Source: Bolinopsis microptera
Taxonomy: Eukaryota; Ctenophora; Tentaculata; Lobata; Bolinopsidae
Direction of reading: 5' to 3'
Length of the DNA: 64,000 bases
NCBI RefSeq assembly: GCF_026151205.1
Contig: NC_087074.1
Span: forward strand, 16,691,962-16,755,961
The notes beneath the pieces are model-generated. The model was given only the letters and a program-made list of their open reading frames with translations, had not been told where the DNA came from and made no database searches. The first letter of the stretch is position 1. Each line of letters begins with the position of its first letter. Shown here piece by piece: positions 9,401-54,011 of this stretch. The position numbers and the translations under genes are program-made.

Positions 9401-12400
9401 ACATGATGAAATGAAATTAGAATTATAAAGCAATCTTTTATAATGATCATTTTAATATGTAATGTAAGCTTTATGAATACTAAAAACCCCCAATTATTCG
9501 TTAAATTCTGTGAATATAATTTAAGATCTAAGAGATCAGTCTTACCATTCGGACCCTTCCACGCTGTTTTGAATTTAGCCTTGTGGGCTATATCAACTGT
9601 ACAGGAAATTGATACATCATCCATATCTGCCGTTACGAATACCTTCGTAAAATCAATTTTCGGTTCTGAAAATAAAAATTTTACCATTAAAATAATGTTG
9701 GTGGTCCTTTAACAGTTTAACACACCATTGCGATTCATGAAACAAAAACATATGGATAAATAGAAATGTACCGCAAACATCTTTTATATTTAAATTACAA
9801 GAAAAACCACGTGTTACAAGAAAGACCACGTGTTACAAGAAAGACCACGTGTTACAAGAAAGACCACGTGTTACAAGAAAGACCACGTGTTACAAGAAAG
9901 ACCACGTGTTACAAGAAAGACCACGTGTTACAAGAAAGACCACGTGTTACAAGAAAGACCACGTGTTACAAGAAAGACCACGTGTTACAAGAAAGACCAC
10001 GTGTTACAAGAAAGACCACGTGTTACAAGAAAGACCACGTGTTACAAGAAAGACCACGTGTTACAAGAAAGACCACGTGTTACAAGAAAGACCACGTGTT
10101 ACAAGAAAGACCACGTGTTACAAGAAAGACCACGTGTTACAAGAAAGACCACGTTTTACAAGAAAGACCACGTGTTACAAGAAAGACTACGTGTTACGAA
10201 TGTACTTACCAGTCACTTCTACAGTAATTGCAGTCTTAGCTTTAGCCACTAGACATTTGTAGGTTTGTGCGTCAGCGATAGCGACATTTTTTTTCGTAAG
10301 GATGCTCATGGATTTACCACCTCCGTTCTTTTTTTCTATATTAAATGAAACTCCATCTTCTAAATCCATGCTATCATCCATCCATTTTATATCGAAAGAA
10401 TCGGACCCCTCGATAAAACAAGTTAATGGAGAACTCTCTCCCGCATTCAGCAGCCATACGTTATTTCCACTTGATTGCATCTCTGAAATGATAATGTAAT
10501 GAATTCTAACGTTGATTGGTAAGTTGACAAATTCAAAACCATGGTTACCCAGTAACCATGGTTACCCAGTACCCACGCTGGGTTAAGGTATCCAGCACAC
10601 ATATGAACACATGGGAACAACCGATACATCATTTATTAATTATCAAACTTTACATAATATCTAAAGCAGTTAAAAACAAACATCCTAAAGATCTGATAAG
10701 TCTACAACGAAGAAGAAGTATCAACTAAAATATTTGACACCAGACCCTCTTACCAAATATTACAGGTTTTAAAGCATTGGAGGATGTCTTTCCAGCTATG
10801 TCACACTTATAACTGTTTTGATCGTCTGTGCCTTTCGTCATATCCGAGATTTCAAATTTGTACTGTAAAGTTACCCCGTCTGTCAATTGCTGGTAACCGC
10901 TGGAGAACTTCGATTCGTATCCACCGCCAACAGGATCGGTGCTTTGGAGTACAACATTATCCCTCATAAGACTGATGGAAAATGCGGTAGCTTGTGCTAC
11001 AATTGTACAGGTTACCGTCATCGTATCACCCGCCACAATGTTAGTTTCCGCAGCTATCTTCAGCTCTGAAAGTAAGGTCTTATTATTATTATAGACCATC
11101 TAGCCCGGTGAAGACAGAAAGGCTTATTCCCCAGTTTCTGAAATGTTGAGTGTAACAGAGGTGGCTTGGTTGAGATCATGGGTGTAGACCAGTGTTGAAC
11201 TCCGGGATCTTAAAAAACACAACATGTACAGAAACCCAAATTTAGTTAAAGTGACTTATTTCATGTTTAAAAAACCCAAACACCTTACCTATGATATTGG
11301 CTTCCTTGGACCTCAATGAAAAATCAGGGTAAAATGATAATCCATCTGTGTTCAATGACCCTCGGTATTCGAACTCAAAATAGATTGGAGAATCAGAAGC
11401 TGTCGCGCCGGGATAACTGGCTATCTTGCCGGGAATCTGAAATGGCCATAAAATGTTAGAAACCAAGCAACTTTTGTATACATCTGTCACGCAGTGAATA
11501 TAATATAAACATTAAACATGATATTATATGTTATTATATTATGTTATGAGTTTAGATTGAAATTGGCTAATCTCCTCTGAATTGAATACAAATAACACAC
11601 GTTATTGCCGACGTTTCGCCCCCATGGCTTCTTCAAGGCGGAACAAAAACTTTGTTACATAGTGACCTGGTAAATATCCAAATTAATACATAAAACTCTG
11701 AGAAACATTAAAAATAAATGGGAAGATTCTAAGCGGTAGAAAATTTTAAAGCAAAAGATAGATGTTAGGCCAAAGAATCTAGAACTGTCCAATATTTGAG
11801 AGCTAGACCAACGTACACAGAACAGCAACGAAAATAGCTTCCTACTCCCTAACATTTTCGGGGAAACTGAAAGGGTGCCACGTACATATATTTTGATGAC
11901 ATTTACATAATAGCCCATGTGGTCTTTTGCCACGAGTCTGCTTCAGGTGAGAGCTGAGTGTTTATTTTAGGAAGTAACTGCTTGATATACAGTGATTGCC
12001 AGATCATTCGGTCTGCATAATCCTTACACATGGGCTATAATCCTTACCACATGGGCTATTATGTAAATGTCATCAAAATATATGTACGTGGCACCCTTTC
12101 AGTTTCCCCGAAAATGTTAGGGAGTAGGAAGCTATTTTCGTTGCTGTTCTGTGTACGTTGGTCTAGCTCTCAAATATTGGACAGTTCTAGATTCTTTGGC
12201 CTAACATCTATCTTTTGCTTTAAAATTTTCTACCGCTTAGAATCTTCCCATTTATTTTTAATGTTTCTCAGAGTTTTATGTATTAATTTGGATATTTACC
12301 AGGTCACTATGTAACAAAGTTTTTGTTCCGCCTTGAAGAAGCCATGGGGGCGAAACGTCGGCAATAACGTGTGTTATTTGTATTCAATTCAGAGGAGATT

Positions 12401-15400
12401 AGCCAATTTCAATCTAAACTCATAATGATAGACCCTCTGACAAGGGCAAAGCGTCATATATACGCTACAAACTCAATTTATTATATTATGTGTCTAAATA
12501 TTCACCTGTGATCCCCCGCGACCAGCTGAGTACCATTTTGATTTCGGGTAACCAGCATCAGCCCAATCAAATTCTTCTATCTCGCCTGTTAAATCAACAA
12601 CTCCGTTCTCGGCAACATAGTACAACTTTTCTAAATCCGTATCTAACGCTGATGGAGATTGTTAAGATTTAAGATAGTGCTGTATAGTGTATAACAGTAG
12701 TTTAAGATAATGCTGTATAACAGTATAACAGTGATTTCTCTAACAGAGAGGGCTGTTTGTTGGGTTGTGTATAATTTTAGTGAATACTGTGCTCTGATTG
12801 GTTAGTCTTTATCACGCGGTGTGAATACTGTGCTCTGATTGGTTAGTCTTAATCACGCGGTGTGAATACTGTGCTCTGATTGGTTAGTCTTTATCACGCG
12901 GTGTGAATACTGTGCTCTGATTGGTTAGTCTTTATCACGCGGTGTGAATACTGTGCTCTGATTGGTTAGTCTTTATCACGCGGTGTGAATACTGTGCTCT
13001 GATTGGTTAGTGTTCTGTATTTTTCATCTGGCCGAGAACAGGCAGATGGTGTAATTAAATGGGCGATAACGAAATCTAGGGATTTACGGTGTAATTGATC
13101 TACGATTTTGCTATTTATTTAACCCACCATAAAATAAATATTATCTGCTAATCTACTGGTTTTCTTCCGAATAAGTTTAATCCGAATGATCGTGTAACAA
13201 TTCTCAGAACTTTTATAACGAATTGAATCTACATATACATAGTTACTACTCAGCGCTTACCCATATATTTAACATCCAGTGTCACATCTGGCCCGTCATC
13301 ATCTCCATTGCCTCCGAAATCGTCCAGTTCGCACCGGTATTTGATATCATCCGCCGAGCCTTTTGTAACCTTGTAGCTGACATATCTGGTACCATCACCC
13401 GCATTTACCTCATAGCCGCTTTTTACAATTGTATCTGAAATTATCAGGAGTTTTAAAAAGTATTTTTTAAAAGTACACGCACCTTGTCAACCAAATCACT
13501 TTTTGGGAGATTGGAAATCTTCACATGCCCAGCAAGTAGGATGAGTAGGATGAGTAAGATGAGTAAGATGAGTAGAATGAGTAAGATGAGTAGGATTAGT
13601 AGGATGAGTAAGATGAGTAAGATGGGTAGGATGAGTAAGATGAGTAGGATGAGTAAGATGAGTAGGATGAGTAGGATTAGGATGAGTAAGATGAGTAAAA
13701 TGAGTAAGATGAGTAGGATGAGTAAGATGAGAAGAATGAGTAGGATGAGTAAGATGAGTAGGATTAGTAGGATGAGTAAGATGAGTAAGATGGGTAGGAT
13801 GAGTAAGATGAGTAGGATGAGTAAGATGAGTAGGATGAGTAGGATTGATCCACGATATCACTACAGGCCCCAGTTAGAGTGTGTAAAGAACACCAAAGTA
13901 GATCATTATAATGTGTTTTACTGGTTAGGATCAGTTTGGTCCGTTTCATGGCAAAAACATTTATTGATTTTGTATTAACCCTTCGGGGCTTGCGTGACCC
14001 TTATCATAGAACTGGTTTTCAGGACTGGCAGTCTGACCTATTGCCTTGCCAGCATAGGTGTACTTATATAGTTTTGCATGGTTCAGTTGCATAGTAGTGT
14101 CCGAATTGCACTGATTCTAGCCCGAGTAGTGTTCGAAAGGGCGCCCTGTTTTGACATGCCTCCTGAGCCGGTACTCATTTCCTCTCTGAGCTAGCTAGTG
14201 TATATCAGTTTCTTGTTGGTGTTTTGTCTGTGTTTGTTTGTCCGTAGTAGGAATTTACTGTAACTTTGGAGACTGGGCGCAGTAATGTCCCAGAGGGTTT
14301 GTAACATCATGGATGCTGACTAAGCTTACCTGATCCTCTCCAACTTGTATTAGTACACTACTTCATTCACACCAGTCATTTCACTACATTAAACTGATTG
14401 AGGTTATGCCCTTTGTACATGCTGAAGCGATATGCTATGATGAGTGGAATATGAGTTAGGATCAGTTTGGTCCGTTTCATGGCAAAAACATTTATTGAAG
14501 TGTTTTACTGGTACTTACTTCCGGTCAATTCTCTTATAAAAGGGATAACGTCTTCAAACCCCACAAAGTTGTTAAAAGAGTAACCAGACACGACACATTT
14601 AATTTCGATCTCTTCGTTCACGGGAGCATAAACCTTTGAAGAATCTCCGAAATCGAATTTCAATTCTGAAAGGAGTAGGTTAATTAATTATTTGATAGAT
14701 AAATAATTTATCAAATAAATCACATGAAAAATGCAGTCTGGTGGTATATAATCAATACAGCAGGGTCCAAGCATAGCACAGCTAAATATATTGACTTGTG
14801 CGAGTCGGAAAATATTCTGAAATAACTTTCCTTAGGGCCTATTATGTTGATTTTGAGAGCTGTAAAAAATTAAAAATGCATTTATAACTATCGAATTGAA
14901 ATCTTAAAACTATCAAAAGAAAATAATTTACCAATTTTCGCCACTTTAAGATTGTGTTTATGAGTTTGCACAGTTGTTCCGTCAATTACGACATTCAAGA
15001 TACAATCCAAGTTTTTGCCACCATCCTCAGGTTTAACCAGGTAAGTGCTGGTAAGCGTTTGCGACCCGGAGTTATATGATTGAGGCCCTCCAACCTCAAC
15101 ACCTGGAAACGGTTTTAGTGATTGTTAGCATCATCAAGACAACTCCAGCTTAGATTACCTTATGCTATCAATTTTCCAAACAACTAAGTTTAAGTTCAGA
15201 AAATATTTTGCAAGTCATAAAAAAATCTGAAAATAGAGTGTATGTAATTTTTAAAAGAGTATATTTAATTTAAAATAGAGTATATTTAATTTAAGATAGA
15301 GTGTATTTAATTCGAAATAGAGTGTATTTAATTTAAAATAGAATGTATGTAATTTTAAATAGAGTGTATTTAATTTTAAATAGAGTGTATTTAATTTTAA

Positions 15401-49711: not shown

Positions 49712-50959
49712 TTACAGTTCATCTTCATCAAAACCCCTGTCCAGTGAACCTGGCTGAACTTCCGTGCTATATCTGGAATATCCGGTATTCGTATAGCTAC
49801 AGATGCAGATAACCGTCCTAACAGCTCTAAAAACATTAATCCCTGAACAGAGTACGTTTGCCATAAATCCGAGCTGAAGTAACAAACAGACAACTTTGGC
49901 AACAGCCATTGGAGAGTCACTGAGCACCATTACATCTCCTACAGTAGTGATTGTAAACACCTGATTATACATCACGGATTTGAAACTGAGAGCTCGGTGC
50001 TTCAGATAGAGATATATACCAGGAATAGAAAGCAGTGCAGATAGAGGTAATAATGAGACAACAAGTTTCAAACCATGTCCTGTTAAAGTAAACTTGGTCC
50101 ACAAATCTGAGTTCTGAAAGAACAAGTTCAAAAACCTCTCCATAATCTCCTGCATGAGAATAACAAAACACGCCAGAAAACATAGCAGAAGCAGGACCCC
50201 AACTATGAAGTACATAACCACAAATAATCTCCCTGTCATACTGTTTGGCAGAGAGCCAGGAGCCCTTACCGTACTGATGAATAATGCTGCTCCCTGGGCT
50301 GATCTCCAGAATGAGGGCTCGGTTTGGGGGTTTCTGAGAGGACACCTGGTTTTGTAGCTGGGTAACATGGTATGCAAGTTGTAACGGGATATTACACTGC
50401 TGGTGATGTTAGTGGTGATTGGTAGAGTGGGATTGTGGTTCTGAAGGGTCTGGAGGCAGAGTGCTCCGAAGAGTAGGAAGAACGTTACTGCTACCAATAA
50501 ACCTAATGATTGAAGTATTTCGCATTGAATCTTGGACTCATAGTTAGTGGTGTATAGTGTGGTACATCTGAAAAAAAGCGATTTTACAGTTGCCGCTTTT
50601 TCCATTGATTTTGGGTGCTTTATTCTTGAAGAACTAGCTTCTTTAGTGAGAAACGGGTTTTGTCGGGTTTGTTGGTGGTTGTAGAATTTCGCTAGCCGTT
50701 TTACTCTGATTTTCTGTGCCCGTTTGCCCCACTTTCTCTCCTCCCGCTGAGCTTGGTGTTGCTTGACTTGTTCTGGGTGATTATTCAAGAAGGGGGATAG
50801 GGAGTCTGTATCACTTGCAATACTCATCTGCATCCTGGTATCTATTCTTCTGGATGGGTGCTTAGCAGTTTTCCTCTGATAAGGAGATAATGAAACGGTT
50901 TCACTTTCAAAACGTTCAGTATTATATGATATCGGTGGCATTTTCGTTTGTTTCGACAT
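49712..50959 (-). CDS. K2P (two-pore-domain) potassium-channel-like protein with altered filters
   Basis: 415 codons from ATG at 50959. The frame stays open to 50989, but an acceptor (TTTTTTGTTAG) lies there, so a 5' untranslated exon is likely. The N-terminal ~140 residues are basic and hydrophilic. The rest follows the K2P order M1-P1-M2-M3-P2-M4: M1 at 152-170 (FFLLFGALCLQTLQ), a loop with a glycosylation site (NIT, 184), P1 after Trp218, M2 at 243-270 (TGRLFVVMYFIVG), M3 at 294-320, P2 at 325-344 and M4 at 352-378. Filter motifs are abnormal: STVRAPG where TIGYG is expected, and TTVGDVM where TVGFGD is expected. It may be non-conducting or differently selective. Assignment is by eye. Confidence 0.55.
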   Translation of the reverse strand: MSKQTKMPPISYNTERFESETVSLSPYQRKTAKHPSRRIDTRMQMSIASDTDSLSPFLNNHPEQVKQHQAQREERKWGKRAQKIRVKRLAKFYNHQQTRQNPFLTKEASSSRIKHPKSMEKAATVKSLFFRCTTLYTTNYESKIQCEILQSLGLLVAVTFFLLFGALCLQTLQNHNPTLPITTNITSSVISRYNLHTMLPSYKTRCPLRNPQTEPSFWRSAQGAALFISTVRAPGSLPNSMTGRLFVVMYFIVGVLLLLCFLACFVILMQEIMERFLNLFFQNSDLWTKFTLTGHGLKLVVSLLPLSALLSIPGIYLYLKHRALSFKSVMYNQVFTITTVGDVMVLSDSPMAVAKVVCLLLQLGFMANVLCSGINVFRAVRTVICICSYTNTGYSRYSTEVQPGSLDRGFDEDEL

Positions 50960-50989
50960 AACTGGTAGAGCGTCAATTTGAGCTAACAA

Positions 50990-51843
50990 AAAATAAACAA
51001 GGACGCAAGAAAAGATCTTTACACAATCTGGTTGATTAATGATTAATTGTTAAGTGGATCGAGTTGATTGATGATTCATTACCTCAATTGTACATGAAGT
51101 GTAAGCTTATCAGGACAATGGTCCTAATGTGTTTTTTGGATGTACTTTTACACCTTGCAATAAATGAACAGTTAATTAGATTTAACATATGGGTGGTTGT
51201 AACTTACCCTCGCCTGTAAACGGAGTTCCTATCATATTCCTTTCTTTTTGTTCAGTACTTTAATCGATCTGGTTCCTAATGAAGTTAAAAATCTTAAAAT
51301 CCATTGAAAGTCTATTGAAAGTGACCTTGCAAATGTAACGTCACGTTCGCGTTGTTTGAGTAGGATATTATTATCTTCAGATAAAATTATGTTCTGCATA
51401 AAACGTTGGTGTCTAACGTCATGTTTCGTCCGTTTCAGAATGTTATCTTTACGCGTGCGTATTGTTAGCATGTGACAATATCCTATATCAGTTATTTGGA
51501 GGTATTGTTTGAAGCATTTTGACTTTTGTATACTTGCTCCATATAGCATTAGCACGAGGAATTTGTATAGATTAAAATGGATTTTGGTGAATGACACATA
51601 CCGTTATCATTTCTAGTTTGTTGTGAAAGTAGCTGTTTCCGTCCCTATCTTGGAGTTGGGGGTTTTGGCACATCAATTGCAGCTCACTTCCTCACGATCA
51701 TAAACGGTGAAAACTCACGAGACAATCCGTCATCAGCATTACTATCTCACTCATCCTCAGACCTCAGCATTCTCACATGACGAAAACACAGTAAATACCA
51801 CCTCTTACCATACTCCCACTCTAATAACATATTCCCAGGAGTC
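50990..51843. promoter_or_regulatory. Divergent intergenic region between K2P-like and ENT genes
   Basis: 884 bp separate the two start codons on opposite strands. The interval probably holds promoters and 5' untranslated exons for both. No core-promoter motif stands out. An open minus frame (51232-51597) has no ATG start or family similarity and is not annotated. Confidence 0.4.
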
Positions 51844-54011
51844 ATGTCAAGGCATCGCGCCCGAACCCCCGACTTCACAATCCAAAACGACCTCCAAAAT
51901 GAGCTGGAAGACCAGCCCCTGATTCCAGGTGGTCAGATCCAGCCCCCACGTGACCATTACAACCTGTCCTACCTTGCAATGGTGGTGTTCGGACTAGCAG
52001 CTCTGCTCCCCTGGAACATGTTCATCACAGCTACCAGCTACTTTGACAAGAAGTTCGAGAAGGGGTCCCCTTTCGTCCACAAACAGTTCGAGAACTTCAT
52101 CACAATCTTCTCGCAGATAACAAACGTAGCGTTTCTCTTTATCAACGTGTCCCTCCAGAACAGGTTCTCTGCCTTTGTCAGGATCATGGGTTCTCTGCTT
52201 GTCATGTGCCTTATGTTCGTCATGACAACCATTATGGTTAAAATAGACACCCACACCTGGGCGGATGGGTTTTTTGGTCTGACGCTGGTTACTGTCGTGT
52301 TGTTCAACGCTTGTGCTGGAGTTTTTCAGGGTGGTATCTTTGGATTGGCAGCTTCGTTCACTCCCAGACACATACAGGTGGGTCTTTTGTATTCCTGTTG
52401 TTAAAGTTTGATACTTCAATAATTACAAAACTCCTGTTACCCTGACAACCAAACCATTTTAAATAGTAATAAAGTCTAAAGATATAATACTTCTTTAAAC
52501 TGTTGTTAGTGTCCGTGTGTCGACTATGGAGTGTGACTGAATTCTGTTTCCAGGGTTTCATGACTGGCCAGGGCGTAGGTGGAATATTTGCTAGTGTAGC
52601 CAGTATCATATCTCTTGCAGTTACTAATGGTAAGCATGTTACTAATGGTTACTAATGGTAAGAATAGAGCTCAAATACAACTCTATTATGCAATGTGCAA
52701 TGTGCACGTGTCTACTTTGTTGAAGATAAATCATTAGTTTCTTGTTAAATCGGTGATTTATTCGTTTATTCGTCAGTTTTTCAAGTTTGATGACAAATGT
52801 ATTTATAAAAACATAAGTGCACACACACTACAATACTAACATAACCATTCTTACAGGCGAAGATCCTATTCAGAGCGGCTTTTACTACTTTCTAGCCGCT
52901 TCACTGGTGATAATTGTAGCACTGGTCATGTATCCCATCTTCCTTAACCTACCTATCTCTAAATTCTATCTTGATAGAGTTACGGACGAGGTAAACGTTT
53001 TAGAAGTTTTAAGTTTATTTGATTATTAAATTTATCACGAGCTAACGGTAGTTATTCAGATTCACGTGGCAATATTAATTTTACGAACGATTATTTTGTT
53101 CAAACCATCCTCGGTTATAAAGTAATAACATGTAATCTCGACTGGTTGGTCGTTGGTAAATGGACAATCGTTGACAGCTTACGTTAAATTATAATTGAGT
53201 GTGCAGCTTACACATTGCCAGCCTAAATAATGACTATGAATTGAACCGGAAAGAGACCATCCTACGACAAAATATTAAAATTTCAACTACAATTTTAAAA
53301 CTACCATTGGAGGAAATATTTTAATCCCTATTATATGATAATTGTTTGGTAGACAATTCGAGTATGTTTATATCTTTTTATTGATTATGAAATCTGGTCT
53401 GCACCCCTTAACATACTATTGTAAAATAGTATCTGAAACCCCATTATTTACAGTTGTCGCGGTCATTCAAAGCACCTACCGTCTCCTCATGGACCATCAT
53501 TAAGAAGATAAAATGGATGCTGTTCAGCGTGTGGGCCACATTCTGTGTCACTCTCACAGTATTCCCCGCTGTGATAGCCTCCATTAAGAGCGTATCAGCT
53601 GACAGCCCCCTGACAACCACCTACTTCACCCCAGTCACCTGCTTCCTTCTCTTCAACTTTGGGGACTTTGTGGGCCGGACTGTGGCCGGGTCCGTTCAGG
53701 TGCTGACCAGGAAGTGGCTGGTTATACTGACTATCACCAGGGTTATATTTATCCCCATGTTTGCCATGTGTAATTATCACCCTGACGAGAGAACTACAGC
53801 GGTGTGGTTTAACAATGATGCGTTCCCTATAGCGTTCATGACAGTGTTTTCCTTTTCTAACGGTTATTTAGCGTCCCTGGCCATGATGTACGGTCCTTCA
53901 CAGGTCCCTTCGGATCAACAGACTACCGCAGGGGCTTTCATGGCCTTTGGGTTAGGGCTTGGCCTTATGAGTGGGGCTTTCATGTCCTTTGCTCTTAACG
54001 CCGTATTGTGA
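51844..54011 (+). CDS. Equilibrative nucleoside transporter (ENT/SLC29 family)
   Basis: Four exons: 51844-52377, 52554-52629, 52857-52990, 53454-54011, giving 433 residues, close to the usual ENT length. ENTs carry nucleosides across membranes by facilitated diffusion through 11 transmembrane helices. Seen here: the TM1 signature LLPWNMFITATSYF (residues 54-67), the TM5 segment NACAGVFQGGIFGLAASF, the following MTGQGVGGIFASVASI, and C-terminal FGDFVGRTVAGSV and FSNGYLASLAMMYGP. Splice phases agree (0, 1, 0). A poly(A) signal is at 54267. A downstream duplicate of its terminal segment (54396-54707) could be spliced in. Confidence 0.93.

Follow-up and report, generated by a model that had tools for sequence, protein, structure and literature searches.

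The open reading frame (ORF) at positions 49712-50959 of the window, the 64,000-nucleotide stretch of DNA analyzed here, is probably a genuine protein-coding gene that has no introns and traces back to a K2P leak potassium channel. Potassium channels are defined by their TxGxG filter, and the predicted protein has lost it from the first of its two pore loops, while the second loop is two residues short at the filter. Our tentative preference, held with somewhat less than even confidence, is that the gene encodes a K2P-derived membrane protein that would not conduct K+ and whose function may be that of a silent subunit or may lie outside transport. The features of the gene and its surroundings are collected in Table 1.

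Table 1. Features of the K2P-derived gene, in window coordinates.
Feature	Position	Strand	Evidence or remark
K2P-like membrane protein, single intronless ORF	49712..50959	(-)	Ion_trans_2 E 1.3e-4; z 5.3 for synonymous codons
First 130 codons, a polar N-terminus where the coding signal is weakest (z 1.3)	50570..50959	(-)	its final part contains the two in-frame indels that separate the copies
M1 (aa 143-174), FFLLFGALCLQTLQN	50438..50533	(-)	hydropathy, alignment; resembles FLMFGALVFSGIEGN of same-genome K2P L043
P1 loop (aa 216-236), SFWRSAQGAALFISTVRAPGS, first filter replaced	50252..50314	(-)	alignment, P1-M2 profile
M2 region (aa 237-281), begins LPNSMTGRLFVVMYFIVG	50117..50251	(-)	filter-free profile 19.8 bits
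M3 (aa 292-320)	50000..50086	(-)	hydropathy
P2 loop (aa 324-342), LSFKSVMYNQVFTITTVGD, filter two residues short	49934..49990	(-)	alignment; P2 match alone weak
M4 (about aa 348-377)	49829..49918	(-)	hydropathy
AATAAA	49622..49627	(-)	84 nt beyond the stop; frequent by chance in AT-rich DNA
Spacer, 884 bp, to ORF 51844-52404 (+)	50960..51843	(.)	two substitutions, zero indels between the copies

Reading frame and second copy

The frame runs on the minus strand from an ATG at 50959 to a TAA at 49712, spanning 415 codons plus the stop with no internal stop, and so is intact as an earlier note on this DNA had described it. Judged from the ORF's own base composition, a stop-free run of 415 codons has a chance probability of ~3e-11. 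The motifs quoted in that note were recovered at aa 165-173 (GALCLQTLQ), W218, 230-234 (TVRAP), 242-250 (TGRLFVVMY) and 339-342 (TVGD). Its poly(A) signal also exists, as an AATAAA past the stop, yet as an argument against decay the signal carries little weight, chance sites of this kind being common in AT-rich DNA.

A second copy of the gene, 98% identical, is present on the same strand of the same contig (C3), 73,955 bp away toward higher coordinates. Both copies have open frames and identical altered filters. The duplication is direct and in pieces, with window positions 23759-57077 corresponding to C3:16794168-16822999 and a 100-N assembly gap between the copies; pieces longer than 800 bp are 91.9-98.6% identical. 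Other near-identical neighbors occur in the assembly, namely the K2P loci L007 and L008 and innexin pairs with equal scores (14 innexin matches in the genome lie above the cut-off), and these suggest un-purged haplotypes. The duplicated block is either that or a recent tandem duplication, and the two copies may therefore be alleles, in which case they would hold little information on long-term constraint.

Between the copies, the coding sequence (CDS) carries 18 substitutions over 1,239 aligned sites (dN 0.012, dS 0.024). The resulting dN/dS of about 0.52 reflects too few changes to decide, so protein constraint is not demonstrated by dN/dS itself. CDS divergence is 1.45% versus 0.46% in the rest of the block (28/6,140, transporter ORFs apart; p 0.0002), and local divergence varies widely, with other duplication pieces differing by 1.4 to 8%, gaps counted. 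The two CDS indels, of 6 and 9 nt, both preserve the frame, compared with 2 of 18 elsewhere in the block (Fisher p 0.03); outside the CDS the in-frame fraction becomes 2 of 6 once indels of 1-2 nt are left out. Frame-breaking indels and substitutions stand at 0:18 in the CDS and 16:28 elsewhere in the block (p 0.0015); counted per site, the absence of frame-breaking CDS indels has p 0.053. The indel pattern favors constraint on the frame, short of proof.

Synonymous codon usage in the ORF is gene-like at z 5.3 (core 5.2, N-terminus 1.3), a value inside the range of five other same-genome K2P ORFs (z 0.3 to 10.4) in a comparison limited to K2P and LINE ORFs. Two LINE ORFs in the window reach z 5.9 and 11.0, and z 5.3 is therefore no proof of current function. 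When amino-acid composition entered the codon score, no preference for the coding frame was seen, at 0.026 bits per codon versus -0.043 to 0.054 in the other five frames; by the same score, neighboring genes reach 0.21-0.33 bits per codon.

These observations bear on the alternative that survives best, which is that the gene is decaying: a K2P copy without filters that is becoming a pseudogene and whose frame has survived by luck or for lack of time since the loss. Decay would account for altered filter residues in both loops and for the missing Pro of GIPL, which is present in 28 of 32 same-genome K2P segments, and it fits the dN/dS value, a CDS that has diverged faster than the remainder of the block, the composition-based codon score and the weak N-terminal codon signal. 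More speculatively, two compensating small frameshifts could have rewritten P1, where the +2 frame reads QYGKGSW. We nevertheless consider decay unlikely. The frame is kept in two copies whose CDS indels preserve it, while 16 of the 18 indels elsewhere in the block do not; synonymous codon usage points the same way; and beside the lost filter the M2 region retains six residues, P, G, R, F, Y and G, that are common in the M2 of same-genome K2Ps. The earlier note had argued against simple decay, and we concur on the strength of the second copy's in-frame indels and of codon usage.

Altered selectivity filters

The first pore loop reads TVRAPGSLP where K2P channels carry T-x-G-aromatic-G. Its alignment with same-genome K2Ps is gapless at the filter, with TVRAPGSLPNSMTGRLF set against T-x-G-x-G-x(3)-P-x(4)-G-[RK], and Arg and Pro occupy the filter-glycine positions. 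The second loop reads TTVG--DVMVL against the TTIGFGDMVIL of the same-genome K2P L003, two residues fewer. The claim that both filters are altered was therefore correct: VRAP and VGD stand where a filter of the GYG, GFG or GLG type is expected in P1 and P2. Since this defining feature is absent, the protein is a K2P homologue by descent and is not classed as a K2P channel.

For comparison, pore sites in the same genome were read at hits from a search with Ion_trans_2 (166 candidates, of which 150 were scored, part of the 150 fetched), among which the present gene itself does not appear. The sample is biased toward intact filters: K2P type was judged by eye, sites were picked with filter-containing motifs, and the search model rewards the filter. 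Within this filter-biased sample, in which several sites are closely related to one another, the last P1 glycine is present in 32/32 K2P-type sites and the first in 30/30 where it is visible (18 GYG, 9 GWG, 2 GFG and 1 GTG; two sites start mid-motif). P2 sites from the same biased sample carry GxG in 24/24 (18 GFG, 4 GLG, 1 GYG and 1 GIG). Excluded from these counts were L008, a near copy of L007; the P2 sites of L004 (TTVGEFEDL) and L085 (STIGL, then frame lost), both assumed to enter an intron; L064 and L067 (GFGN), by eye another K+ channel type; L083 (GYG, with an M2 unlike K2P); and one Ion_trans_2 match near L089 that was only partly covered by the sequence read.

Variation at the first filter was seen at other loci in the genome. 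Nine K2P-type sites have GWG (L007, L011, L013, L043, L063, L075, L086, L089 and L092), and the K2P-type P1 exon of L085 (C9:12692311-12693484) has GTG in place of GYG.

Could the altered loops form a pore of another kind? In a conducting channel with new selectivity, the rewritten P1 and the shortened P2 would line a pore for other ions or a non-selective one. The hydropathy pattern is kept and no measurement speaks against conduction, but Arg and Pro at the P1 glycines and the two-residue deletion in P2 remove the known ion-binding backbone. We found no precedent for such a channel in our survey of papers on silent and filter-deficient K2Ps, and we regard this explanation as improbable.

A gene-model or assembly error, in which the true protein takes normal filters from other exons or from corrected sequence, appears less probable still. 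The idea draws on the many K2P exons elsewhere in the genome that begin at GYG, which imply an intron at the first filter, and on ACG|GTAAGG in P1, which resembles a splice donor. The gene studied here has no intron at that point; frame and homology continue through the filter site, and the two copies agree at both filters, though they come from one assembly. Moreover, among the 150 matches scored from 166 Ion_trans_2 candidates, no other one falls in the interval 13.92-18.40 Mb of C3, and hence no alternative pore exon was seen nearby. A retained 29-nt mini-intron in P1 (GTAAGG...AACAG) was considered and rejected, as removal of 29 nt breaks the frame.

Evidence for K2P homology

The hydropathy profile shows two pore loops bordered by hydrophobic segments consistent with M1-M4. 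Hydropathy and alignment with same-genome K2Ps agree on four transmembrane helices and two pore loops in the order M1-P1-M2-M3-P2-M4, which upholds the order first proposed for this protein; the structure model does not confirm it, since a single-sequence AlphaFold2 prediction of aa 130-415 was unusable (pLDDT 48.7, pTM 0.30).

Database and pairwise searches gave matches of differing strength. The Pfam Ion_trans_2 profile, a check suggested in the earlier note, matched the protein with E 1.3e-4 and 22.2 bits, yet under the curated cut-off of 22.5 bits. For the second copy, whose reading included roughly nine additional residues at the N-terminus, no Pfam family matched at E<=0.01. A PDB sequence search returned four weak matches, comprising three K2P2 chains (E 4.5, 4.5 and 7.4) and a ribosomal protein (E 6.6). 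Alignment with same-genome K2Ps places the motifs in register at 19-23% identity, and BLASTP with L043 alone gave 21% identity (E 0.001). With the protein and its second copy as the hhalign query, of which the program retained one of two rows, the match to four same-genome intronless K2Ps scored 88.7% (E 2.6e-6, aa 216-379). The match to four Kv-type proteins, their type judged by eye, scored 0.2% over 23 columns and does not place the protein among Kv channels.

The similarity extends beyond the filter, even with the Ion_trans_2 score below its cut-off. A P1-M2 profile built from 32 K2P segments, with three filter columns deleted, scored 19.8 bits, a value reached by 0 of 2,000 hydropathy-class shuffles (1,460 scored, best 11.6). 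An HMM of the four K2Ps that includes the filter columns scored 17.6 bits, reached by 2/1,000 hydropathy-class shuffles (999 scored) and by 0/1,000 plain shuffles (674 scored). P2 alone is weak, at 5.4 bits, which 2 of 2,000 shuffles attained (1,229 scored). On these scores, the relationship to K2P rests mainly on P1-M2. Taken together, the Ion_trans_2 match, the alignment, the hhalign result and the filter-free profile bear out the K2P relationship that the sequence had first suggested. A chance resemblance in a four-helix membrane protein from another family, for which the Pfam score slightly below cut-off and the high E values of the K2P chains from the PDB leave some room, is very improbable given the filter-free P1-M2 test, the profile match over both pores and the negative Kv control.

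Genomic neighborhood and other loci

ORF 51844-52404 (+) lies head to head with the K2P-derived gene, 884 bp from its ATG, and matches no Pfam family alone. ORF 53454-54008 matches Nucleoside_tran (E 9e-48), and the two ORFs are taken as one nucleoside transporter gene. The spacer contains a splice-acceptor-like TTTTTTGTTAG upstream of the ATG of the K2P-derived gene, which may mark an intron in its 5' UTR. Elsewhere in the window, ORFs 9766-10227 and 13484-13978 are made of short repeats (VTRKTTCYKKDHVLQERPR; MSRMSKMS) and are satellite-like.

At a separate locus, L100:655-1212 (C2:22711854-22712411), a Kv-like ORF contains a 31-residue unit of pore helix and filter (93 bp) six times in tandem, with 99% matches. 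This sixfold pore repeat is either a VNTR within a channel pore or an assembly artefact.

Discussion

We return to the preferred reading, in which the membrane protein derives from a K2P channel and passes no K+. Such a protein would fold as a K2P-type subunit in which the ring of backbone carbonyls that binds K+ could not form, leaving it unable to conduct. Without a TxGxG-type filter, K+ sites do not form as known for K+ channels; here P1 has no TxGxG and P2 is missing two residues, from which we infer that the sites would not form. Most likely, the protein would be a silent partner of conducting K2P subunits, pairing with them so as to reduce or alter their current or their level at the surface. 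The main variant is a homodimer with a non-transport role.

One result from the genome speaks against the silent-subunit role. In searches of the assembly (264.65 Mb, 232 contigs), no obvious close partner paralogue was found; beyond the second copy, the best matches had E 0.13 and 0.24, with 25% identity and, across 46 residues, 37% identity.

A bolder proposal, which we regard as less likely than not, is that the gene represents a lineage of K2P pseudochannels that selection has maintained in ctenophores, with both filters abandoned and the four-helix scaffold retained as a non-conducting structure. Such a protein might silence partner channels, or it might act independently in sensing or trafficking, and it would then stand to channels as pseudoenzymes stand to enzymes. 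No description of the gene was found in the literature on silent and filter-deficient K2Ps, ctenophore K2Ps, the filter intron and KCNK7, a survey whose scope left out most subscription journals. If the preferred reading is true, this intact gene of K2P descent, with its two filters rewritten, would provide a natural experiment on the uses of a K2P scaffold that conducts no ions, and the few known silent K2P subunits would gain another. If the DNA is from a ctenophore, the gene would also bear on how the ion-channel set diversified in an early-split animal lineage.

With K2P (KCNK) channels in general, the protein shares the order M1-P1-M2-M3-P2-M4, the FGAL motif near the end of M1, the P, G-R-x-F, Y and G at the start of M2, and TTVG and D in P2. 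These channels differ from it in having TxGxG in P1, two further residues in P2 and the Pro of GIPL. An altered second filter occurs in KCNK7.

Several K2P subunits are silent on their own. KCNK7, KCNK12 and KCNK15 are termed silent (PMC8616229, with a similar list in PMC11339754), and KCNK7 and KCNK12 give no current when expressed alone (PMC11339754, PMC8616229); the silence of KCNK12 probably comes from retention and a low open probability (PMC8616229). Mammalian TASK-5 (KCNK15) is non-functional alone, forms heteromers with TASK-1 and TASK-3 and lowers their surface expression (PMC11364637). The same source describes a TASK-5 G95E variant, in which GYG becomes EYG and the first filter glycine is broken, as dominant-negative (PMC11364637). 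By analogy, TASK-5 offers a precedent for the proposed silent subunit, being a K2P subunit that is silent alone. TASK-5 has close TASK partners, whereas none was found for the present protein, and G95E changes one residue whereas both filters are rewritten here.

A further comparison comes from the same genome, where the intronless K2Ps L043, L011, L003 and L007 are single ORFs like the gene described here. The M1 of L043 (FLMFGALVFSGIEGN) and that of L011 resemble its M1, but all four differ from it in their P1/P2 filters, which read GWG/GFG in L043 and L011, GFG/GFG in L003 and GWG/GYG in L007.
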